Made by a program: the position numbers and the translations under genes
DNA from: a virus
DNA length: 24,593 bases
Strand: one strand, 5' to 3'
Virus record (IMG/VR): IMGVR_UViG_3300027736_000240
Coordinates: 1-24,593 of that record
Part shown: piece by piece, positions 2,492 through 14,258 of the stretch
Layout: every line of letters starts with the position of its first letter
Numbering within the stretch: the stretch's first letter is position 1
The notes under the pieces: model-generated
Told to the model about the DNA's origin: nothing
What the model saw: only the letters and a program-made list of their open reading frames with translations
Database searches by the model: none

Positions 2492-3172
2492 ATGACATTC
2501 CGAACCTACAAAGAGATCGAAGGCGGTGGTCTGTCGCGTCCACAAGAGTGGATGGGGGTCACATGGCAAAGCACCGCCGAGGCGCGCTGGGTGCGTTTGC
2601 TTGCGGATCTTGGACAGACGGTTGCGCCAGGTCGCGCGATTACGCTCTCCGAGCCGGTCGTCCAGCATGACGGGTATGTTCGACGGTGGTACAAGCCCGA
2701 CGCGTGGTTGCCCGATCTCGGGTGGCATGTCGAGGTCAAGCCAAGCGGGATCACTGACGAAGAGGCGACGGTCATCGCATCCGCGCTTGAGACATCGGAG
2801 AATCCGGTTCTTCTGCTTGACAAGGCAATGCCCGCGCAACGGTGCTACACGCTTGTGCATGGCTACTACGAAGAGGGCATGGCGATGATTGACGGTGTCG
2901 ACCCTGAAGTGCGGTCGTATGTCGACGTTCGAGATGGGAACACGTGTGGTCTGGCGTGCACATTCCGCTACCTGTGGTTGGGTAGATTTCCTGCCATTCA
3001 CGCAGGGCTTGCCGCATGCAAGACGCATCGCAGAGGGGGACAACTATCTGACACGCATGGTCTTGAAGCCGGAACCGGACGATTTAGGCCATACGGAATT
3101 GAAGTGCCGGATAACAAGTGGTTCAAGGATATGAAGCGCAACTTCGTGCGTCCGTTCGGCGGTGAGGCATGA
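2492..3172 (+). CDS. PD-(D/E)XK nuclease superfamily protein
   Basis: The 226-aa product starts at the ATG at 2492, 5 nt after GGAGGG. The N-terminal half shows the PD-(D/E)XK layout: an upstream acidic residue in a helix (E30 in STAEARWVRLLADLG), the KPDAWLPDLG turn with D70, and the EVK strand with E81 and K83. This arrangement is common in phage and bacterial TnsA-like or 'restriction-like' small nucleases. The C-terminal half contains C152, C156, C176 and H179, a possible second metal site. It would cut DNA, perhaps in recombination, replication or host-DNA degradation; specificity cannot be read. The stop overlaps the primase start in ATGA. Confidence 0.75.
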   Translation: MTFRTYKEIEGGGLSRPQEWMGVTWQSTAEARWVRLLADLGQTVAPGRAITLSEPVVQHDGYVRRWYKPDAWLPDLGWHVEVKPSGITDEEATVIASALETSENPVLLLDKAMPAQRCYTLVHGYYEEGMAMIDGVDPEVRSYVDVRDGNTCGLACTFRYLWLGRFPAIHAGLAACKTHRRGGQLSDTHGLEAGTGRFRPYGIEVPDNKWFKDMKRNFVRPFGGEA

Positions 3173-5556
3173 ACGCACGTGCATTGCCGCCACGTGAGTT
3201 GCCGGACAACATTGCGCACCTTGGCACGATGCGCAACTGGATTGCGTGGGAACGCGTCAAGGTTCTGAACGACGATGGCACCGTCAAGTTGAATGTCGAC
3301 GGTACGCCGAAGATATCCAAAAAGCCGCGTACGGCGAGCGGCACACATAAGCGGTGCCATGAGGATTGCACTGGCGATGGTGGTTCCACGGGGACGAATG
3401 ACACGTACATGAAGACGTGGAGAACGTATGCCGAGGTCCGCACGGCGATTGACCGGCGACCCGGACTGGCGGGCATGGGATTCGTGTTCCCGCTTGAAGG
3501 TGGCATGGTCGGCGTCGATCTGGATCACGTCATCGACGCTGACGGCGTCATGAGTCCCGAGGCTGACGCGATCATCGAGGAACTCGGCAGTTACGCCGAA
3601 TGGTCGCCCTCCGGGACAGGCATTCACATCCTGTGCCTCGGGGCACTGCCGGAAGGTGGACGCAAGCGCGGCAACGTCGAGATGTACGCGACCGGGCGGT
3701 ACTTCACGTTCACCGGACGTGGCTACAGTCGGTTTGGGGATCTTCCGATACGTGATGCGACGGCGGAACTCGCGGCCATACACGCGCGGGAGTTTGATGC
3801 GCCATCGCCGCAGGGCCGGTTGCCGACGGTTGCGAGCGATGACGTCGCGCCGTTCGACGCCGAACCGATGACGGACCCGGACCTGATGCGTCACATGTTC
3901 GCAGCGCGCAACGGTGAGGCCATCGAGCGCCTGTGGCAGGGCGACGACGGGGCGCATGGTGGCGACACTTCATCCGCGGACCTTGCGCTGTGCAACCACC
4001 TGGCGTTCTGGACGAATGCCGACCGGCTGCGGATGGACGCGATGTTCCGTGCGAGCCGACGCATGCGCGACAAATGGGACGAGCGCCACCACGCCGATGG
4101 ACGCACCTACGGCCAGGGGACCATTGACCGCGCCATTGCCGGGACGTCAACCACGATTGGTCAGCGGCGATCCGCAAGGACTGCGGTGGCGACTGCGACA
4201 CGGGCCGGGGACAGCATCGGCGACCGCTTGCCGTTCACCGACCTCGGGAATGCCGAGCGGTTGGTGCGGGCGCATGGCGACAACATCCGGTGGGTGACCG
4301 ATTGGAAGGTCTGGATACGTTGGAACAATCTTTATTGGGAGCGTGACGCCGACGGTGCGGTCATGCGACTGGTCTTCGATGTGGTGCGTGACATCGTTTT
4401 GGAGGGCGAGGACGAGGCAGTCGTCAAGTTTGCGGTTCGCTCGGAGGCGCTCCAACGGATGGTGGCAGCCGTGGAACTGGCAAAGGCGCTTCCGGGCATC
4501 AGCATCCGGTCGGACATCCTGAACCAAGGGCGCGACACGCTCGTGGTGCGTGATGGCACGCTTGACCTTCGCACCGCCGAGGTCACGCCGCACCGGCGCG
4601 AGGACATGATCACGACGGTTATCAAATGGGACGGGGAACTCGCGCACTTCGACCTGAATGCCGAATGCCCGGTCTTCATGCAGGCGCTTGCCACATGGCA
4701 GGCGGACCCGGAGGTGCGCAGGTACCTGCAACGGTTCGCGGGGTACGCGCTGACCGGCCACGTCCGTGAGCGTGCCATCGCGATCTTCTGGGGGACTGGG
4801 CGGAATGGCAAGTCCACCTTCGTGGAGGCGCTGAAACAGACGTACGGCGACCACTCGCACCAGTCGTCCACGGACTTGATCATGCAACGGCGGGGCACGG
4901 ATGCGGGCGCAGCATCGCCGGAACTCGCAGCCTTGCAGGGCAAGCGCCTGGTGGTGATGGACGAAACATCCGAAGGCGGCAAACTTGACGAGGCACGCGT
5001 CAAGTGGCTGACCGGCAACGACCGCCTGTCCGCGCGGAAACTGTACGGCGAACCGTTCGAGTTCAATCCAACGCACACGATCCTGCTCACGACCAATCAC
5101 CGGCCGGTCATACGGTCCGGTGGCGAGGCGATCTGGGACCGCATCCACCAGGTGCCGTGGGAGACGCGGATCTCGGACGCCGATCTGGATCGCACCCTGC
5201 CGGACCGGCTGCATGCCGAACGCCCGGGCATCTTCACGTGGGCGGTGCTCGGCACCGGGTCGTGGTACGAACGGGGACTCGACCCGCCACCATCTGTCCA
5301 AAAAGCGACCGAGGAATATCGCGATTCCAGCGACTGGTTTGGCCTGTTTTTGGAGGATCGGTGCGTGCTTTTGGAAGGTCAGATGACGACCGCAAAGGAT
5401 CTGCACCGTGCATACGATGCATGGGCGAAAGAGTCGGAAGAACGGCTTCTATCGGTGATAACGCTTGGGCGCATCCTGTCCGAGCGCGGGTTCCGAAGCG
5501 CCAAGGACCGGCGCGGACGGCGTGGATGGGACGGCATCGGATTGACACCTCAGTGA
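3169..5556 (+). CDS. Primase-polymerase / SF3 helicase (NrS-1-like)
   Basis: This 795-aa protein appears to combine priming and unwinding. The N-terminal archaeo-eukaryotic primase-like domain (residues about 15-215) has the acidic pair D117 and D119 in GVDLDH, the SPSGTGIHI signature (146-154) and RKRGNVEMYATGRYFTFTG. A helix-bundle domain follows (residues about 240-320, with TSSADLALCNHLAFWT and KWDERHHADGRTYG), as in the phage NrS-1 polymerase. The C-terminal half is a D5/P4-type SF3 helicase: Walker A GTGRNGKST (542-550, K548), Walker B VVMDE (D598, E599), and a sensor segment LLTTNHRP. It should prime and unwind phage DNA independently of host DnaB/DnaG. A likely origin lies directly downstream. 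A CATCTGTCCAAA copy of the origin repeat occurs inside the gene at 5291. Confidence 0.88.
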   Translation: MNARALPPRELPDNIAHLGTMRNWIAWERVKVLNDDGTVKLNVDGTPKISKKPRTASGTHKRCHEDCTGDGGSTGTNDTYMKTWRTYAEVRTAIDRRPGLAGMGFVFPLEGGMVGVDLDHVIDADGVMSPEADAIIEELGSYAEWSPSGTGIHILCLGALPEGGRKRGNVEMYATGRYFTFTGRGYSRFGDLPIRDATAELAAIHAREFDAPSPQGRLPTVASDDVAPFDAEPMTDPDLMRHMFAARNGEAIERLWQGDDGAHGGDTSSADLALCNHLAFWTNADRLRMDAMFRASRRMRDKWDERHHADGRTYGQGTIDRAIAGTSTTIGQRRSARTAVATATRAGDSIGDRLPFTDLGNAERLVRAHGDNIRWVTDWKVWIRWNNLYWERDADGAVMRLVFDVVRDIVLEGEDEAVVKFAVRSEALQRMVAAVELAKALPGISIRSDILNQGRDTLVVRDGTLDLRTAEVTPHRREDMITTVIKWDGELAHFDLNAECPVFMQALATWQADPEVRRYLQRFAGYALTGHVRERAIAIFWGTGRNGKSTFVEALKQTYGDHSHQSSTDLIMQRRGTDAGAASPELAALQGKRLVVMDETSEGGKLDEARVKWLTGNDRLSARKLYGEPFEFNPTHTILLTTNHRPVIRSGGEAIWDRIHQVPWETRISDADLDRTLPDRLHAERPGIFTWAVLGTGSWYERGLDPPPSVQKATEEYRDSSDWFGLFLEDRCVLLEGQMTTAKDLHRAYDAWAKESEERLLSVITLGRILSERGFRSAKDRRGRRGWDGIGLTPQ

Positions 5557-5578
5557 TGTCCGGTGCGCGTGCCTTTTT

Positions 5579-5602
5579 GGACAGATGGACAGATGGACAG
5601 AT
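5579..5602 (+). repeat. Three tandem 8-bp repeats GGACAGAT
   Basis: Exact tandem copies at 5579-5586, 5587-5594 and 5595-5602. Their reverse complement ATCTGTCC recurs at 5678, 5775 and 5795, so the unit is part of the larger origin-candidate array. Confidence 0.9.
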
Positions 5603-5742
5603 GTTCGGCAAAGTCCCCTTTGTGTGCGCGTGTGCGCGTGTGCGGGTGCGGGCGCGAATGGTTACTTTTCTGTATTTATCTGTCCAATCTGCCGTCAGAT
5701 ATGTAAAACATACAAGTTGACAGGGAAGAAAGTCAAAAAAAG

Positions 5743-5766
5743 GTGACGGCAGATGTGACGGCAGAT
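5743..5766 (+). repeat. Two tandem 12-bp repeats GTGACGGCAGAT
   Basis: Exact tandem copies at 5743-5754 and 5755-5766. They share the CAGAT core with the GGACAGAT units. The related GCCGTCA arm also appears at 5691-5697 and the GCCGTCATCTG arm at 5789-5799. Confidence 0.9.
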
Positions 5767-5773
5767 GTGTTTT

Positions 5774-5805
5774 CATCTGTCCAAAAGCGCCGTCATCTGT
5801 CCAAA
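5774..5805 (-). repeat. Two direct repeats CATCTGTCCAAA, 20 bp apart
   Basis: Exact copies at 5774-5785 and 5794-5805, two helical turns apart start to start. A third exact copy lies at 5291-5302 inside the primase-helicase gene. They are the reverse complement of the TTTGGACAGATG unit, so protein binding on one face of the helix is plausible. Confidence 0.85.
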
Positions 5806-5877
5806 GATGATCGCGGGCGATTGGCCGCAACCACTTGACAATACGTCCGTTTAAGAGGGTGGAACGGGGGATGTACC

Positions 5878-6054
5878 ATGACGGGATACTGGCTGGCGGT
5901 CGGGTTGGAAATGGCGATGCTGGTACTGCTCCTGGCTATCGCACTGTGGGCGCTGTTCGATGCAGATCGGCTACGCGGACTGTGGATCACGGAACGGGAG
6001 CGACGGGTGACGGGATCACGCGAGTGCACTTGCGGGGCGTACCGCCGGTGCTGA
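5878..6054 (+). CDS. Small single-span membrane protein (58 aa)
   Basis: A short ORF starts at the ATG at 5878 with a GGGGG ribosome binding site about 7 nt upstream. The 58-aa product has one strongly hydrophobic segment (residues about 5-27, including LVLLLAIALWALF), then a charged basic tail (DADRLRGLWITERERR) ending in a cysteine cluster C50, C52, C58 (ECTCGAYRRC). Little N-terminal charge and a positive C-terminal side suggest an N-out/C-in topology. It overlaps the start of the sigma-like gene by 7 nt, implying coupled translation. It could be a holin-like or regulatory membrane peptide, or tether the sigma factor. None of these is demonstrated, and the coding assignment rests on composition, RBS and spacing. 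Confidence 0.65.
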   Translation: MTGYWLAVGLEMAMLVLLLAIALWALFDADRLRGLWITERERRVTGSRECTCGAYRRC

Positions 6055-6659
6055 TCGACGATGTACGCGAGACGTTTGACGCGCTGTACAGCGATCTCGG
6101 TGGCGAGGTCACGGGACACGTGCACCGCCTGATGAAGGGGCGCACGCTTGACGCGCTGTCCGCCGAGGATTGCATCCAAACCGTGTGGACGAAGGTGTGG
6201 GCGAACTTGCCGGACGCCGAGCGCCGACCCGGACGGGGACGCCATGACGGGCTGCGCGCGTGGGTCCACATGATCACGCGCAATACGGTCCTCGACTTGG
6301 CGAACCGTGCATCGTACCGGCGTCACGTCAGCCTGGCACCGGACGGGATGCTGGACCACGGAACCGTCAACCGGTCCGGCGACGCGGTCCGTACGGACCC
6401 GCACTTCGAGGCGTCACCGGCCACCGACCCGCATGCACGCGCGGTCGGCAACGAGGTCGCGTCAATGGTCAACGAGGCGCTCGGCATGATGACGGCGTAC
6501 CAGGCGCGATGTGTCCGGACGATGCTGGTAGGACTCAACAGCGTCGAGTCGGCGCAGCGCCAGGGCAAGACCGGCCGGGGCGTTCGCCACGCGCTGTTCC
6601 GTGGCCGGCGGACGTTCGAGGCCGTCGCGTCACAAAGGGGCTACGACCTATGCCATTGA
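6048..6659 (+). CDS. Sigma-70 family (ECF-like) RNA polymerase sigma factor
   Basis: The product is about 203 aa from GTG 6048, which overlaps the previous stop by 7 nt; GTG 6024 is an alternative. The region-2 part (residues about 7-94) holds FDALYSDLGGEVTGHVHRLM, then AEDCIQTVWTKVWANLP, the region 2.2 core-polymerase contact, then LRAWVHMITRNTVLDLANR, the region 2.3-2.4 promoter-melting and -10 helix. After an acidic, His-rich linker, region 4 (residues about 137-192) reads ALGMMTAYQARCVRTMLVGLNSVESAQRQG followed by a basic recognition helix, TGRGVRHALFRGRRTF. It should redirect host RNA polymerase, most likely to late promoters, given its place between replication and morphogenesis genes. 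Target promoters could not be identified. Confidence 0.75.
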   Translation: MLIDDVRETFDALYSDLGGEVTGHVHRLMKGRTLDALSAEDCIQTVWTKVWANLPDAERRPGRGRHDGLRAWVHMITRNTVLDLANRASYRRHVSLAPDGMLDHGTVNRSGDAVRTDPHFEASPATDPHARAVGNEVASMVNEALGMMTAYQARCVRTMLVGLNSVESAQRQGKTGRGVRHALFRGRRTFEAVASQRGYDLCH

Positions 6660-6982
6660 TTGACGGGTTCGGTCTGCCGGCACGCTTGGTTGTGTGGATC
6701 AGGGCGCAGTCGTGCGGCGTCACGATGCAGGTGAATACGGAAGACGTGCTGGAAGAACTGCGGATCATCTACCCGCCACGCCCCGACCTCGGGTCGCCCG
6801 AGGAGTTGTGGGATGCCATCCGCCAGGCCGACGCCGAGGATGAGGCGCTCGGCAACGCGAACCATTGGCGATCGTTTGTCCTTGTCGCGTGGGCGTTCGA
6901 ACCGGGCGACAGCGTCACGGGCGGCGTACCGCGGACAATCCGGTTCGTGTGCCCGCGGTCCACCTGGGAGGTGGCGCTGTGA
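6650..6982 (+). CDS. Hypothetical protein (110 aa)
   Basis: I do not recognise this 110-aa protein. The ATG at 6650 has AAAGGGG 9 nt upstream and overlaps the end of the sigma gene by 10 nt. The N-terminus is hydrophobic (GFGLPARLVVWIRA) but too short and charged for a clear membrane span. The middle is acidic and helical (SPEELWDAIRQADAEDEALG). The C-terminal half contains probable beta strands (SFVLVAWAF, TIRFVC). The stop overlaps the GTG of the next gene (GTGA). Confidence 0.65.
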   Translation: MPLIDGFGLPARLVVWIRAQSCGVTMQVNTEDVLEELRIIYPPRPDLGSPEELWDAIRQADAEDEALGNANHWRSFVLVAWAFEPGDSVTGGVPRTIRFVCPRSTWEVAL

Positions 6983-7583: not shown

Positions 7584-8006
7584 ATGGCTGAACAGCGATA
7601 CACCATGACGCAGATCGCGGATGCCTTGCGTGCGCATGGTGGCTTCGTCAGCGACACCGCAGTGCACCTCGGCTGTTACGCCACAACAGTCAGGCGATAC
7701 ATTGCGCGGTACCCGGCGCTCCAGCAGATCATCGACGATGAACGCGAGCGCGTGCTTGACGTGGCCGAACGCGCCAACGCCAAACTGATCGCGGATGGAC
7801 ATCCCGAGCAAGTGCGCTGGTTTCTCGGCAAGATGGGCCGCAAACGTGGCTACACCGACAAGACCGAGGTCGAACTAAGCGGACCCGGTGGAGGGCCAAT
7901 CCGTCTTGACGTTGACCGATTCCTCGACGCTCTCGCCGTTGCAGAGGCTGGCACGCTTGCCGCGCCACCTGCAACGCCAGGTGTTGCAACAGGCGACGCG
8001 GACTGA
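7584..8006 (+). CDS. terS: Terminase small subunit
   Basis: This is about 140 aa. The ATG at 7581 leaves only 1 nt after GAGG, while the ATG at 7584 leaves 4, so 7584 is preferred. An N-terminal HTH (residues about 8-45) contains MTQIADALRAHGGFVSDTAVHLG and TVRRYIARYPALQQII, followed by a long helix (DDERERVLDVAERANAKLI) and PEQVRWFLGKMGRKRGY, a segment typical of phage TerS proteins that assemble as rings. It would recognise the packaging site and load the large subunit. It sits directly upstream of TerL and shares 119 nt with it. The C-terminus is low-complexity Ala/Pro/Gly. Confidence 0.82.
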   Translation: MAEQRYTMTQIADALRAHGGFVSDTAVHLGCYATTVRRYIARYPALQQIIDDERERVLDVAERANAKLIADGHPEQVRWFLGKMGRKRGYTDKTEVELSGPGGGPIRLDVDRFLDALAVAEAGTLAAPPATPGVATGDAD

Positions 8007-9210
8007 CGCGGACCTCGGCGCAATGCGCCGGGAGTGGCGCATCGTCGGACGTCCGAACCAGCAGCCACCCGTCACCGATTGGCGGACGTGGCTGGTGCTC
8101 GCGGGCCGAGGCTTCGGCAAGACGCGCACGGGCGCGGAGTGGGTCCGCGCGCAGGTTGAACAGCACGGACGCCAGCGCGTCGCCATCGTCGGCGCAACCG
8201 CAGCGGATGCGCGCGACGTCATGGTCGAGGGCGAGTCCGGCATCCTTGCCGTTGCACCGCCTGGCAACCGACCCGAGTACGAGCCGTCGAAGCGTCGCCT
8301 GCGGTGGCCGAACGGCGCGATGGCGACGACGTACTCGGCCGACGAGCCGGATCGGTTGCGCGGTCCGCAACACGACGCCGCATGGTGTGACGAACTTGCG
8401 GCGTGGCGCTACCCGGAAGCATGGGACATGCTGCAACTCGGACTGCGTCTCGGCACCGACCCGCGTGCCGTCGTGACGACGACGCCGAAGCCGACGCGCA
8501 TCCTGCGTGACCTGATCGCCGCACCCGGCACCGTTGTCACCACCGGGTCCACGTTCGACAATGCGTCCAACCTGCCGGCGGCGTTCCTTGCGCAGATCCG
8601 ACGGCAATACGAGGGCACCAGACTCGGACGCCAGGAACTGTACGCCGAACTCCTTGAGGACACACCAGGCGCGCTGTGGACGCGGGCGATGATCGACGAT
8701 CACCGCGTGCGTCACGCGCCAACGTTCCGGCGCGTCGTCGTCGCCGTCGACCCGGCCGTCACGTCCGGCGAGGATGCGGACATGACGGGGATCGTCGCCT
8801 GCGGTCTCGGCGAGGACGGGCACGCGTACGTCATCGGGGATTACACGCTGCGCGCGTCACCTGATGCGTGGGCGCGGGAGGCGGTGCGCCGGTATCGTGA
8901 CCTCGGCGCCGACCGGCTTGTCGCCGAGGCGAACAACGGTGGCGACCTTGTCGAGACGGTCATGCGCACGGTCGACGCGAATATCGCGTATCGTAGTGTC
9001 AGGGCCAGCCGGGGCAAGCTGGCACGGGCCGAGCCGGTGGCGGCGTTGTACGAACAGGGGCGCGTGCATCACGTCGGCGTGTACCCTGACCTTGAGGACC
9101 AAATGGCGACGTACACCGCGGACGCTGCGAAATCCCCTGACCGGCTGGACGCGCTGGTGTGGGCGCTGACCGATCTCATGCTCGGCGGTGGCGAGTGGGT
9201 GATGGTATGA
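7888..9210 (+). CDS. terL: Terminase large subunit (packaging ATPase/nuclease)
   Basis: The 440-aa product carries both terminase activities. The ATPase part has Walker A AGRGFGKT (72-79, K78), preceded by the family-typical DWRTWLVL, Walker B AAWCDEL (D168, E169), and the coupling motif VVTTTPKPT (195-203). The RNase H-like nuclease has D288 in VAVDPA, E347 in VAEANNGG and acidic D418/D421 in SPDRLDALVWAL. It would drive DNA into the prohead through the portal and cut the concatemer. The GTG at 7888 gives a 119-nt overlap with TerS. The overlapping reading (LQRLARLPRHLQRQVLQQ) looks like the normal N-terminal helix of this family, so the overlap is probably real. The stop overlaps the portal start (ATGA). 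Confidence 0.93.
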   Translation: MEGQSVLTLTDSSTLSPLQRLARLPRHLQRQVLQQATRTDADLGAMRREWRIVGRPNQQPPVTDWRTWLVLAGRGFGKTRTGAEWVRAQVEQHGRQRVAIVGATAADARDVMVEGESGILAVAPPGNRPEYEPSKRRLRWPNGAMATTYSADEPDRLRGPQHDAAWCDELAAWRYPEAWDMLQLGLRLGTDPRAVVTTTPKPTRILRDLIAAPGTVVTTGSTFDNASNLPAAFLAQIRRQYEGTRLGRQELYAELLEDTPGALWTRAMIDDHRVRHAPTFRRVVVAVDPAVTSGEDADMTGIVACGLGEDGHAYVIGDYTLRASPDAWAREAVRRYRDLGADRLVAEANNGGDLVETVMRTVDANIAYRSVRASRGKLARAEPVAALYEQGRVHHVGVYPDLEDQMATYTADAAKSPDRLDALVWALTDLMLGGGEWVMV

Positions 9211-11366
9211 GGTGGCGCGACCGCATCGCGAAGGCGTTCCGTCTGGGTCCGGCAACCGTCGACACTTTCGAGACGACCTACGGGCACGATCAGGAGCGGT
9301 ACGCGCCAGCCGCCTACGGCGATTACCCGGCGACGAACGCTGCCGTCTTCGCTTGTTCCAACATCCGGGCGAAGAACCTAGCGAAACTGAACCTCAAGAT
9401 CTACAAGCGCGCCACGAACGGCGAGCGCGTCGAGGTGACATCAGGGCGCCTGTACGATCTGATGCGCTCGATCAACGGCTATTGGACATTCCGCCGGTTG
9501 ATCCGCATGACCGAGATGAGCCTCTGCACCTACGGTCAGGCGTTCTGGGTCTTGGAGAACGGCGTCGAGGGGCGCACTTCGGCGCAATCCGCACCACGGG
9601 AGATCTGGTGGGCGAACCCGTCGAAGATGACGGTCGTGCCGGACCCGGTGCGGTACATCAAGGGGTACCTCTACGAGGATCAGGGCAAGACCATTGCGTT
9701 CGACCCTGCCGACGTGATCTGGCTGAAATACGACAACCCGGCAGACGAGTTCAGCGGGTTGTCACCGATCGCATCCGCGCGCCTGGCAATCGACACGGCT
9801 GCGGGCGCGATGCGGTCCAACCGCCAGATCTTCGACTCCGGCATGATGCTGTCGGGCGTCATCGGTCCCGCCGACAAGGGGTCGAGCCTGACCCGCGAGC
9901 AGGCCGAACAACTCAGCCAGATGCTGGAACGCCGGTTCAAGGGCGCTGACAAGGCGCACCGCACGGCGGTCCTGACGCAGCCGATCTCGTTCACGCCCAT
10001 GAACCTGACGCCGAAAGACGCCGAGTTCCTGTCCCTGATGTCGTACGGGGTCCGCGAGGTGTGCACGGTGTACGGCGTCGCACCGCAACTGATCGGCGAC
10101 CAGACGCATTCGACCTACTCCAACTACGAGCAGGCAGCGAAGGCGTTGTGGACGGACACATTGCTGCCTGAGGCGCGGTTCCTGGCCGACGAGATCACCG
10201 AACAGTTGGTCCCGTTGTTCGGCACCGAGGCCGACGAAGTCGAGTTCGACGCGTCGGACATCGAGACCCTGCAGGAGGACCGCGCCGAAGTCATCGATCA
10301 GGTCGTCAAGTTGGTCGGCGTCGGCGTGCCACTCAACCGCGCACTTCAGGAACTGGCACCACGGTTCCTGCCACCGGGCAAGACCGGCTACGCATGGGGC
10401 GACGCGGCGTGGCTGAACACGACGATCTTTAGTCCCGTTACCGAGGAGACGATGGCGGGTCTCGCCAAGGCACCGGCACCGACGGCGTTGCCATCGACCG
10501 AGGTATCGACGACACCGGCACCCGTCAAGGCGCTGCAATCCATCGCGTGGCCGGTGCTAGCGCTTCCGTCACCGGTCGTCACCGCGTCCGGCAAGGCCTA
10601 TCACGAATACGACAGCGCAGGCCACATGGCTACATGGAAGGCGTTCACTACCGAGACCGACAAGCACGAACCGGCGTTCGAGCGCATGATGCGCGACTAC
10701 TTCCGGCGTCAGCAGGCGAGTGCGCTGTCGCGCCTGCGGTCCAAGGCGGCAAAGGCACCCGGCGACGCAGCCGAGGAGCCGATCAGCCTCGCGGAATGGA
10801 ACCGGCGACTGCGCGCGCTCGGCCAGCCGCTGATCACCGCAACGGTCGGTGACGCGGGCGATGCGACCCTGACCGACCTCGGCATCCTCGCGCGGTTCGA
10901 CCTGAACTCGCCGCAAGCGGTGGCGATGATCGAGGGCCGGGCGCAACGGTTCGCCAGGTCCGTCAACGACACGACGTACGCGGCGCTGCAACAGACGCTT
11001 GTCGCCGGGATCAACGCAGGCGAGGGCATTCCCGAACTATCGGCGCGGGTCGCCACCATCTTCACGGACGCAGCCACATGGCGAACCATCGCCATCGCGC
11101 GCACCGAGGTCGTTGGCGCGTACAACTCCGGTGCACTTGAAGGCGCGCACCAATCCGGCGTCGTCACGGGCAAGAATTGGCTAGCAGCGCTTGACAGCCG
11201 GACGCGCGAGAGTCATGTCGCGGCGCATCGCGATCCTCGCAACCGCAACATTCCACTCGATCAGCCGTTCCACGTCGGCAACGTGACCGGCATGGCACCG
11301 CACGACCTGCCATCGGCGAAAGAAGTGGTCAACTGCCGGTGCACCCTGACTTTCGAAACCGACTGA
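9207..11366 (+). CDS. Portal protein fused to Mu gpF-like minor head protein
   Basis: The 719-aa product is nearly twice the usual HK97-type portal. Residues about 30-400 look like a phage_portal domain: YPATNAAVFACSNIRAKNLAKLNLKIYK, TFRRLIRMTEMSLCTYGQAFW, DVIWLKYDNP, SGLSPIASARLAIDTAAGAM, and the VCTVYGVAPQLIG/STYSNYEQA segment near the stem and clip. A Pro/Ala/Thr linker (residues about 415-460) leads to a Mu F/SPP1 gp7-like domain at the C-terminus with TIAIARTEVVGAYNSG, DSRTRESHVAAH and the final VNCRCTLTF. The portal forms the dodecameric vertex. MuF-type proteins are minor head components, sometimes ejected with DNA. No frameshift or stop separates the two halves. Confidence 0.9.
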   Translation: MRWRDRIAKAFRLGPATVDTFETTYGHDQERYAPAAYGDYPATNAAVFACSNIRAKNLAKLNLKIYKRATNGERVEVTSGRLYDLMRSINGYWTFRRLIRMTEMSLCTYGQAFWVLENGVEGRTSAQSAPREIWWANPSKMTVVPDPVRYIKGYLYEDQGKTIAFDPADVIWLKYDNPADEFSGLSPIASARLAIDTAAGAMRSNRQIFDSGMMLSGVIGPADKGSSLTREQAEQLSQMLERRFKGADKAHRTAVLTQPISFTPMNLTPKDAEFLSLMSYGVREVCTVYGVAPQLIGDQTHSTYSNYEQAAKALWTDTLLPEARFLADEITEQLVPLFGTEADEVEFDASDIETLQEDRAEVIDQVVKLVGVGVPLNRALQELAPRFLPPGKTGYAWGDAAWLNTTIFSPVTEETMAGLAKAPAPTALPSTEVSTTPAPVKALQSIAWPVLALPSPVVTASGKAYHEYDSAGHMATWKAFTTETDKHEPAFERMMRDYFRRQQASALSRLRSKAAKAPGDAAEEPISLAEWNRRLRALGQPLITATVGDAGDATLTDLGILARFDLNSPQAVAMIEGRAQRFARSVNDTTYAALQQTLVAGINAGEGIPELSARVATIFTDAATWRTIAIARTEVVGAYNSGALEGAHQSGVVTGKNWLAALDSRTRESHVAAHRDPRNRNIPLDQPFHVGNVTGMAPHDLPSAKEVVNCRCTLTFETD

Positions 11367-11373
11367 GGACGCG

Positions 11374-12753
11374 ATGAACGACAAAACCTACACCGACGCA
11401 ACGTACCAGGCCAAGCAGGTCGGCGCGGACGGCGTGCCCATTTACACGTTCCTGTTCACGAACGACCGGCTGGACCGTCAGGGCGAGGTCGTGACGCTTG
11501 AAGGGTGGGACTTTACCCAGTATCTGACCAATCCTGTCGTGCTTGACAGTCATCAATACATGAGCATCGAGGCCATCGTCGGCCGGTGCGTGGCGATCAG
11601 TCGCAGCGACGCGGGCTGGCTGGCGGACATCCGCTTCAACGACAGTGAGTACGGCGCGCTTGCGCGGTCGCTGGTCGAAGGCGGAGACCTGCGCGCGGTC
11701 AGTGTCGGGTTCCGGCCGCTCGCAATCGAGTACCCGGACATGGCATCGCTGCGCGCATCACGCGCGTTCGATGACGACACCATCAAGGCGCTCGTGACCG
11801 TTGCGCCGGACCCGGCCACGGCCGTCCGGCATGTCAGGAAGGAACTCCTCGAGATCTCGGTCGTGCCAATTCCGGCGAATGCCGACGCGATTCGCGTCAG
11901 GTCCGTTGACCCGCCGGTGACGACATCCGGTACCGCCATGTCAGTCACCAAGATCGAGGCACCCGGCTGGTTGCGCCAGAACGCGCGTCAGGGTCTTGAG
12001 TGGCACGCGGACGGACTGTCCGGCGACGGGGTCACGGACAAGACGCTGGCGGAAGCGCGGTCGATGGCCGGAGGCAACGTGTCGGACGACAAGGCGGCCC
12101 GCATGGGCGCGTGGTTTGCCCGGCACATGGGTGACCTTGACGCGCCATCCGCGGACCGCGGACATCCCGACTACCCGTCACCAGGCGTGGTCGCGCATGC
12201 GCTCTGGGGCGGTGGCAGCCGCACCGAGAGCGAACGTGCCGCAGCGTGGGCGCGCGGTCAGTCCGGCAAGGGCGCTGACGCGTCACCGCCAGACCGTGAT
12301 ATCGTTGTGGCAAGCACCGGCTTTGTGCGGGACGTGTGGCCGTCGGTCGCGAGCGCGATGCTCGCGGTGCTGACATCCACGGCCGATGACGCGACGCGAC
12401 GTCGCGCCTACAACGGTCTTGAGCGTGTGTACAAGGTGCTTGGCAAGGAGCCACCCGAGTTCATGAACGCCGACACGGTCGCCAAACTTGGCACCACCGA
12501 ACGCAACGGCATGTTCTGGGAAGGCGAACCAACCCACGCGAAGGCCGCGGGACCGATCAGTCCCGAGACCGAGGCACTGATCCGGCAGGCGCACGACCTG
12601 CTCATGCGCGTCGTCGAGGCACTTGACGAGACGCCTGAACCTGTCGTCACGGATCGACCACCGACGGATGAACCCGTCATGTACCAATCCGCGGACCCGT
12701 TCCGCGCATTCGACCCGCAGGCATTGCGGGCATTCCTGGAGACACGCAAGTGA
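11374..12753 (+). CDS. HK97-type prohead protease with extra C-terminal half
   Basis: The N-terminal ~175 residues are a prohead protease of the S78/HK97 gp4 class: DRLDRQGEVV, the catalytic His in DSHQ (H60), the Ser in AVSVGF (S110), and the ELLEISVVPIPANADA signature (157-172). It should mature the capsid by cleaving the capsid protein's N-terminus and itself. Residues about 193-300 form a second module: LEWHADGLSGDGVT, ARMGAWFARHMGD, HPDYPSPGVVAHALWGGG and ERAAAWARGQ. I recall this pattern as an accessory domain scattered among phage proteins, function unknown. Residues about 305-459 are helical and acidic and could act as an internal scaffold. The usual protease is roughly 200 aa, so the length is unusual. 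The ATG at 11374 follows a GAGGA site. Confidence 0.88.
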   Translation: MNDKTYTDATYQAKQVGADGVPIYTFLFTNDRLDRQGEVVTLEGWDFTQYLTNPVVLDSHQYMSIEAIVGRCVAISRSDAGWLADIRFNDSEYGALARSLVEGGDLRAVSVGFRPLAIEYPDMASLRASRAFDDDTIKALVTVAPDPATAVRHVRKELLEISVVPIPANADAIRVRSVDPPVTTSGTAMSVTKIEAPGWLRQNARQGLEWHADGLSGDGVTDKTLAEARSMAGGNVSDDKAARMGAWFARHMGDLDAPSADRGHPDYPSPGVVAHALWGGGSRTESERAAAWARGQSGKGADASPPDRDIVVASTGFVRDVWPSVASAMLAVLTSTADDATRRRAYNGLERVYKVLGKEPPEFMNADTVAKLGTTERNGMFWEGEPTHAKAAGPISPETEALIRQAHDLLMRVVEALDETPEPVVTDRPPTDEPVMYQSADPFRAFDPQALRAFLETRK

Positions 12754-14258
12754 ACACCGACGAGATCGGCATTATCCTCAGCGACGTGCAGGCACGCCTG
12801 AAAGGGCTTCCCGAGCACGTGACCAGCGACGCAGCCTTCGAGGCACGCGCCGCACAGATCGCCAAGCAGATCATCGACGCGGAGGTCGCCAATCCGAACA
12901 GCGAGTTCGTGCGGAAGATCCGCTTCGGCACCGACCAGAAACTGGTTGGTTCCAAGTTCGCCCGGCATAACCTCAACATCAGTGACGTCGAGTTCCTCTA
13001 CGACATCGCCGTCGCCGAACAGCGCAGCGGTCGTGGACGCGGACCATCGCCGGACCTTGAAAACGCGTTCAAGGCAATCTCCGAGGCGTACTACCTGCCG
13101 GAGGCCGAGGTCAAGGCAATTGACCAGCGCGCCATCGACAACCTGTTCCCGCGCGTGCCGGTAAGTTCCTTCGCAGGCGCTGATCGCGAACTCGCGGCCA
13201 AGGGCATGTGGTGGGCGACCAGCGCATACCGCAAGGCAATGGACTCGGCCGAGAGCGGCTTCGGTAGCCAGTTGATTGGGGCGCAATACGTCCGTGACCT
13301 GTGGATGTCGGCGCAGGCCGAGAGCCGCATCATGGCGCTGATCCCGCAATTCGAGATGACCGACCCGACGGTGTATGTGCCGGTCGAGGCGGACCTTCCG
13401 GAGATGCTCCTGTTCTCCGAGGCGACGACCTACAACGCAAGTGCGAACACGTCGACGAAGACGGGTAGCAACCGCGTGTCGATCACCGCGTCCAAACTCG
13501 GCTTCAACCAGTATTGGTCTGGCGAACTCGACGAGGACAGCATCATCCCGTTCGTGCCGTTTCTGCGGGCACAGTTGGCACGCGCCACTGCGCACTACAT
13601 GGATAGCCTGATCCTCAACGGTGACACGACCAACACCGCGACGGGAAACATCAACCTGGACGACGCCGATCCGGCGGACACCAAGCATTACCTAGCGTTC
13701 AACGGCATCCGCAAGGCGGGATTGGTTGACAACACCGGGAACAAGAAGGACGCGGCTGGCGCGGTCACATGGGGTCTTCTCAAGGCCCAGCAGGCGCGCA
13801 TGCGCTCGGATGCGCTCCTTCAGGATTGGGGTCATCCGACCAACCCTGCCGACTTGATCTACGTCGCTGACCCATCCACCGCCGACGCGTGCGCGAGCCT
13901 TGATGAGGTCATCTCGGTTGACAAATTCGGACCATCGGCAACCGTCCTGACCGGACAGTTGGGACGCATCGGCCAGTCGCCATTGATCACCTCGATGGCG
14001 ATGTCGAAGACTGAGGCGGACGGCAAGGTGTCAACGACCAGCGCCAACAACGTCAAGGGCCAGGTTGCCGCATTCAACCGCAACGGGTTCCGTCTCGGGT
14101 TCCGTCGGCGCATCCGCGTCGAGACCTTCCGCGACATCAAAACCGATCAGTTCGTAATCGCGCTCTACGTCCGTGCGGGTCTCGGCCGGTACTCCGGTAC
14201 GGGCGCTGTATCGGGCATCGAGTGCGCCGACGTCCTGTACAACATCACCGTCGCCTAA
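12750..14258 (+). CDS. Major capsid protein, HK97 fold
   Basis: The 502-aa product starts at a GTG overlapping the protease stop (GTGA). The N-terminal ~160 residues are helical and charged, consistent with a delta/scaffold-like region that the protease may remove. From about residue 165 the sequence resembles HK97 gp5-like capsids: SGFGSQLIGAQYVRDLWMSAQAESRIM, then PVEADLPEMLLFSEAT, KLGFNQYWSGELDEDSI, LARATAHYMDSLILNGD, a P-domain segment with YVADPSTADACASLDE, and the C-terminal RLGFRRRIRVETFRDIKTDQFVIALYVRAGLG. Placement after portal and protease is the canonical order. It is larger than HK97 gp5 (385 aa), so insertions or a long delta domain are likely. The start of the mature protein is not determined. 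Confidence 0.88.
   Translation: MNTDEIGIILSDVQARLKGLPEHVTSDAAFEARAAQIAKQIIDAEVANPNSEFVRKIRFGTDQKLVGSKFARHNLNISDVEFLYDIAVAEQRSGRGRGPSPDLENAFKAISEAYYLPEAEVKAIDQRAIDNLFPRVPVSSFAGADRELAAKGMWWATSAYRKAMDSAESGFGSQLIGAQYVRDLWMSAQAESRIMALIPQFEMTDPTVYVPVEADLPEMLLFSEATTYNASANTSTKTGSNRVSITASKLGFNQYWSGELDEDSIIPFVPFLRAQLARATAHYMDSLILNGDTTNTATGNINLDDADPADTKHYLAFNGIRKAGLVDNTGNKKDAAGAVTWGLLKAQQARMRSDALLQDWGHPTNPADLIYVADPSTADACASLDEVISVDKFGPSATVLTGQLGRIGQSPLITSMAMSKTEADGKVSTTSANNVKGQVAAFNRNGFRLGFRRRIRVETFRDIKTDQFVIALYVRAGLGRYSGTGAVSGIECADVLYNITVA

Follow-up and report, generated by a model that had tools for sequence, protein, structure and literature searches.

ECF sigma factors are commonly paired with membrane anti-sigma factors. 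In the RseA, RsiW and CnrY pairs, the gene for a single-span membrane protein lies beside that of the ECF sigma factor, and cnrY lies upstream of cnrH; NepR is a soluble two-helix anti-sigma factor. Hallmarks of the ECF group are AAC/CGT promoters, a co-transcribed anti-sigma factor and positive autoregulation (PMC8103513). In Sphingopyxis, the -35 box of EcfG promoters is most often GGAAC or GCAAC and the -10 box most often CGTT; a promoter of this kind precedes the overlapping nepR2-ecfG1 genes, which encode a small anti-sigma/sigma pair (PMC7083833).

ECF-type sigma factors are also encoded by phages, for example phi32_gp36 of phiEco32 and SaPh711_gp47 of 7-11 (PMC8948821, PMC4331800). 7-11 gp47 drives late promoters, a proven case of ECF-type late control by a phage (PMC8948821). 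Host transcription is inhibited in phiEco32 by gp79, a protein that 7-11 lacks (PMC8948821, PMC4331800). For the well-annotated, ECF-encoding phage Privateer, neither a soluble nor a membrane anti-sigma candidate has been recognised (PMC7881722).

The window analysed here (the whole of the 24.6 kb IMG/VR virus record IMGVR_UViG_3300027736_000240) is a tailed-phage fragment with all genes on the plus strand, running from early genes through a D5-type primase (3169-5556) to RusA, terminase, portal, capsid and tail genes. A 58-aa ORF and a sigma-like gene sit between primase and RusA, at the replication/packaging junction. The arrangement resembles the nepR-ecfG operons of alphaproteobacteria, for example nepR2-ecfG1 of Sphingopyxis granuli: in both, a small gene precedes an ECF sigma gene and overlaps it, a GGAAC/GCAAC-N16-CGTT element stands in front, and autoregulation is proposed (PMC7083833). 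It differs in that the phage microprotein is a membrane protein without detected similarity to NepR, no PhyR or kinase was seen in the phage, and the phage sigma factor is no closer to EcfG than to other ECFs. As with RseA, RsiW and CnrY, the gene of a single-span membrane protein lies beside an ECF sigma gene; unlike them, the phage microprotein has no recognisable anti-sigma domain and no extracytoplasmic sensor domain, and its predicted cytoplasmic part is a C-terminal tail of about 28 residues, which is short beside known anti-sigma domains. The genomes of phiEco32 and 7-11, which likewise encode ECF-type sigma factors, are unrelated to this one.

Results

A conserved element, reported here for the first time, lies just upstream of the microprotein gene. 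This intergenic candidate ECF-type promoter, GCAACCACTTGACAATACGTCCGTT (5827..5851, plus strand), comprises a -35 GCAAC (5827-5831), a 16-nt spacer and a -10 CGTT (5848-5851). GCAACC and CGTCCGTT are invariant in 12/12 aligned contigs, while an internal TTGACA and the leader length vary; the constant block starts at about 5826, and the modules upstream of it differ among relatives. Exactly 12 of 2.9 million viral contigs contain the element block, once each, and in all of them the microprotein gene follows directly downstream. An invariant AAC-N15..18-CGT appeared in 0.075% of column shuffles, which is not a clean p-value because the motif had been noticed before the shuffle test. GCAAC-N16-CGTT matches the published EcfG-type ECF consensus (PMC7083833). 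By sequence, the sigma gene has an AAC/CGT candidate promoter before its own operon, as expected of an ECF member. A sigma-70 promoter using the TTGACA at 5835 was ruled out, as this hexamer is not kept in L002, L008 and L015. These genomes contain few further matches to GCAAC/GGAAC-N16/17-CGTT, and those that were checked are unconserved or within coding sequence; extra copies of the element as late promoters were ruled out, none being conserved outside coding sequence.

The ORF at 5878-6054 (plus strand) encodes MTGYWLAVGLEMAMLVLLLAIALWALFDADRLRGLWITERERRVTGSRECTCGAYRRC. Its translation, hydropathy and conservation agree with the original prediction of a 58-aa single-span peptide with a basic tail and cysteines at positions 50, 52 and 58. 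There is one hydrophobic span (Kyte-Doolittle peak 2.41, residues 5-26; transmembrane segment at about residues 5-27), followed by a basic C-terminal tail with ECTCGAYRRC. Residues 31-58 include 8 Arg and 3 Glu, and few charges lie N-terminal to the hydrophobic stretch. Under the positive-inside rule the predicted topology is probably N-out/C-in, which would place all three cysteines in the cytoplasm. AlphaFold2 gives a single long helix (2-54), with pLDDT of 90 or more in the transmembrane part and 53-63 in the tail. The gene has a strong Shine-Dalgarno sequence, GGGGGA (5866..5871, plus strand), identified by sequence and anti-SD pairing; predicted duplex energies across the window and its relatives range from -7.8 to -11.8 kcal/mol.

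Conservation and substitution pattern identify the 58-aa ORF as a real gene and rule out a chance ORF. The microprotein is intact in 13 other viral contigs (IMG/VR), the absence of its first 2 codons in L004 being due to the contig end, and the sequences form two clades, with 86-97% and 76% identity to the window. The pN/pS ratio is about 0.23 in the microprotein frame, compared with 1.16 and 3.5 for the two alternative frames, and variable sites fall 21/7/40 by codon position (p about 5e-6); these figures pool related sequences whose columns are phylogenetically non-independent and are therefore indicative only, although their direction is clear. Variation in the last ten codons is almost all synonymous, and C50, C52 and C58 are invariant. 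The microprotein matched no known family in Pfam or NCBIfam, NepR included, and was not found in annotated isolated phages.

The segment encoding the tail (window 5990-6054) is nearly identical at the nucleotide level among clade-1 contigs: it is 100% identical to L004 over 77 nt, and L004 and L015 are 92% identical to each other here, with flanks at 65-88%. This could be either a recombination patch or a nucleotide-level constraint.

The downstream gene (6048..6659, plus strand, with an alternative start at GTG 6024) encodes a two-domain ECF-type sigma factor, with region 2 at about 6117-6311 and region 4 at about 6444-6635. The earlier view of it as sigma-70-like holds, and it can now be placed in the ECF group. 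Pfam Sigma70_r2 was found in 13/13 homologues (E 8.1e-8 for the window protein) and Sigma70_r4_2 was significant in 5/13; NCBIfam sigma70-ECF models match all 13, the window protein falling below the curated cut-off. The best PDB sequence matches are Streptomyces SigG1 (1e-7) and M. tuberculosis SigL (9e-4). A structural model has ECF sigma factors as its top fold matches in Foldseek, although its confidence is low (pLDDT only 66), a shallow alignment being the probable cause; in it, helices 74-99 and 136-204 are separated by about 37 residues. This agrees with the ECF build of a region 4, a short linker (under 50 residues) and no region 3, and the sigma2-sigma4 separation of about 40 residues is typical of ECFs. 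Searches of annotated isolated phages with the sigma factor gave weak matches (E 0.05 or worse), with no close kinship to the sigma factors of those phages, and the plasmid matches are distant sigma factors. The ‘RNA polymerase sigma factor’ annotated upstream of the terminase in a Desulfofustis phage was rejected as a counterpart; it is a 123-aa basic protein that by eye is not sigma-like, with no membrane partner annotated beside it. The next gene in the run (6650..6982, plus strand), encoding 110 aa of unknown function, overlaps the sigma stop.

The overlap between the peptide and the sigma start that had been predicted is present, but its likely extent is the 7 nt given by RTG 6048 (RTGCTGA; GTG in clade 1, ATG in clade 2) rather than the 31 nt given by GTG 6024. 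The later start is favoured because each of the five variable sites within 6022-6051 is a third codon position when read as microprotein (four changes are synonymous and one is E49D), while the putative sigma frame evolves neutrally there, with a ratio of 1.03. The microprotein stop and the probable sigma start would then share GTGCTGA (ATGCTGA in clade 2; 6048..6054, plus strand), and the pair is probably translationally coupled. Given this neutral evolution of the sigma frame, it follows that the cysteine codons are kept on the microprotein’s own account, and retention merely through dual coding with sigma is ruled out. A stop codon directly before the equivalent of 6024 in L025 and L026 makes a sigma start further upstream impossible in those contigs.

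Replication and packaging genes are swapped among relatives, while the element, microprotein and sigma genes stay together, so that strong mosaicism surrounds a constant regulatory unit. The peptide is present, and overlaps sigma in the same way, in 11/11 relatives showing both regions, and none of these keeps sigma without it, the outcome originally named as one that would refute the idea; all sequences come from one narrow phage group, which makes this co-occurrence weak evidence. In the contigs searched the microprotein occurs in no other context, and in sigma-bearing relatives it is always promoter-proximal. The one case of a microprotein without an intact sigma gene is L015 (IMGVR_UViG_3300041016_000846), a single contig in which an in-frame internal deletion at about 5290-5370 joins the first 30 or so sigma codons to the last ones, keeping the overlap with the next gene as well as the microprotein and the promoter element. 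The tail segment of L015 is almost identical to that of sigma-bearing relatives while its flanks have diverged, so that sigma may have been lost recently or by recombination, or its absence may reflect faulty assembly. Two recombinants are also present, with what looks like exchange of the transmembrane half in L004 (clade-2 type) and of region 4 in L008 (nearer clade 2). In both, the microprotein tail and sigma region 2 remain of one clade, which fits a contact between tail and sigma2 as well as simple linkage or proximity.

Between primase and microprotein (window 5557-5825 and the corresponding position in L003, L005-L008, L015 and L024-L027) we observed three different cassettes, each of which goes with its own primase type: GGACAGATG/CATCTGTCC repeats accompany a 795-aa primase, CCCGCCGTAC inverted repeats one of about 742 aa, and a 163-aa ORF one of about 746 aa. 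They look like exchangeable primase/origin modules. The packaging/head modules also differ between the window (7888-14258) and the contig of L003 (L036/L037) despite the common microprotein-sigma unit, relatives with this unit having either a 440-aa terminase or a 510-aa terminase with an HNH gene.

Three microprotein-bearing relatives (G001, G003, G004) encode, at another place, an M23 peptidase endolysin with two or three further small membrane proteins next to it. This lysis cassette lies at L036:110-1743 (minus strand), with matching places in L038 and L040, and its small membrane proteins (84-85 aa with one span; 92-155 aa with one or two) are candidates for the true holin.

The analogy with membrane anti-sigma factors, on which the original prediction was built, stands in part. 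We found a conserved, probably coupled ECF pair behind a conserved ECF-type element, and hydropathy, the positive-inside rule and the helix model predict one transmembrane helix plus a cytoplasmic part, as in membrane anti-sigma factors. However, Pfam and NCBIfam searches gave no anti-sigma family at a significant E-value, the ZAS motif HxxxCxxC is absent (the spacing is CxC...C, with no histidine in clade 1), and L015 keeps the peptide with sigma deleted. With the cysteines predicted to face the cytoplasm, the data do not point to sensing of an extracytoplasmic state.

Discussion

Our data give good support to a conserved ECF operon that begins with the gene of a membrane microprotein. An ECF promoter followed by a small protein gene and an overlapping ECF sigma gene is the anatomy of the autoregulated nepR-ecfG operons of cells. 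This favours a regulatory operon where replication genes give way to packaging genes, and the conserved candidate ECF-type promoter in front of the pair strengthens this reading. What the microprotein does is a more tentative matter. The leading reading, which we favour with some reserve, is that it controls sigma, and an independent membrane function is almost as plausible.

We can propose how such an operon might work. Transcription from the ECF-style promoter (5827-5851), probably autoregulated, would enter the microprotein gene, and ribosomes ending there would start again on the overlapping RTG and so translate the ECF sigma gene; transcription could continue into RusA, terminase and the structural genes. 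The microprotein would insert N-out/C-in, leaving its Arg-rich, Cys-bearing tail in the cytoplasm, where the tail would most likely bind sigma, or the sigma-RNA polymerase complex, at the membrane; the microprotein, co-translated with sigma, would serve as its negative regulator or its tether. Activity of sigma would then require either that a threshold be passed or that the tail be altered or lost. Both the binding and its sign are hypothesised, and it is gene order and position that suggest control of late transcription by sigma. Taken as a whole, a compact autoregulated ECF-type operon whose microprotein tail binds sigma as negative regulator or tether is our working explanation, put forward with somewhat less than even confidence. 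The stronger version, in which a membrane-anchored anti-sigma or tethering microprotein, expressed from an autoregulated ECF promoter, controls when the phage passes from replication to packaging and structural genes and so forms a membrane-bound viral counterpart of nepR-ecfG, is doubtful.

The alternative that fares best, and that may well be correct, is an independent phage inner-membrane protein, with a role for example in host take-over, superinfection exclusion or the envelope, that merely has promoter and operon in common with an ECF sigma factor that is controlled by nothing but its own expression. Phages commonly encode small membrane proteins of unknown function, closely packed overlapping genes are usual in this genome (250/253, 6650/6659, 7206/7209 and 12750/12753 in the window), and the absence of anti-sigma similarity and the survival of the microprotein without sigma in L015 point the same way. 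However, the sigma loss in L015 may be recent, and the microprotein’s constant position, promoter-proximal and overlapping sigma in every sigma-bearing relative and found nowhere else in the contigs searched, speaks against it.

A different alternative concerns the promoter and is compatible with either reading of the microprotein. A host ECF sigma factor, of the EcfG-like general stress response, could read the element at 5827-5851 in place of the phage sigma, so that host stress would switch on the gene run and the phage sigma would act on other promoters. The exact EcfG-type consensus and the retention of the element in L015, where most of the sigma gene is gone, agree with this, but we consider it unlikely: a second conserved promoter on which the phage sigma could act was not found, no relative was present in 84,980 species genomes, and terminase, portal and capsid searches gave no consistent host signal.

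It is quite improbable that the ORF serves chiefly as a translational leader, coupling or limiting the synthesis of sigma, with a product that matters little. The RTGCTGA overlap would suit such a role, as would a sigma Shine-Dalgarno sequence (-6.1 kcal/mol) weaker than that of the microprotein (-8.6 kcal/mol in the window), but purifying selection acts at the amino-acid level along the whole ORF, and the transmembrane segment and cysteines are conserved. Least likely is the holin or other lysis role that was also considered originally, since the protein, although small and single-span, is encoded between replication and packaging genes, and the lysis cassette of three relatives is elsewhere.

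Few groups of phages are known to encode ECF sigma factors. The GCAAC-N16-CGTT element is a ready-made reporter, with which one could ask whether the phage sigma or a host stress sigma reads it. If control of sigma by the microprotein, the reading that we tentatively prefer, is true, then this co-translated membrane partner of sigma would be an instance of a virus tying a transcription switch to the cell membrane.
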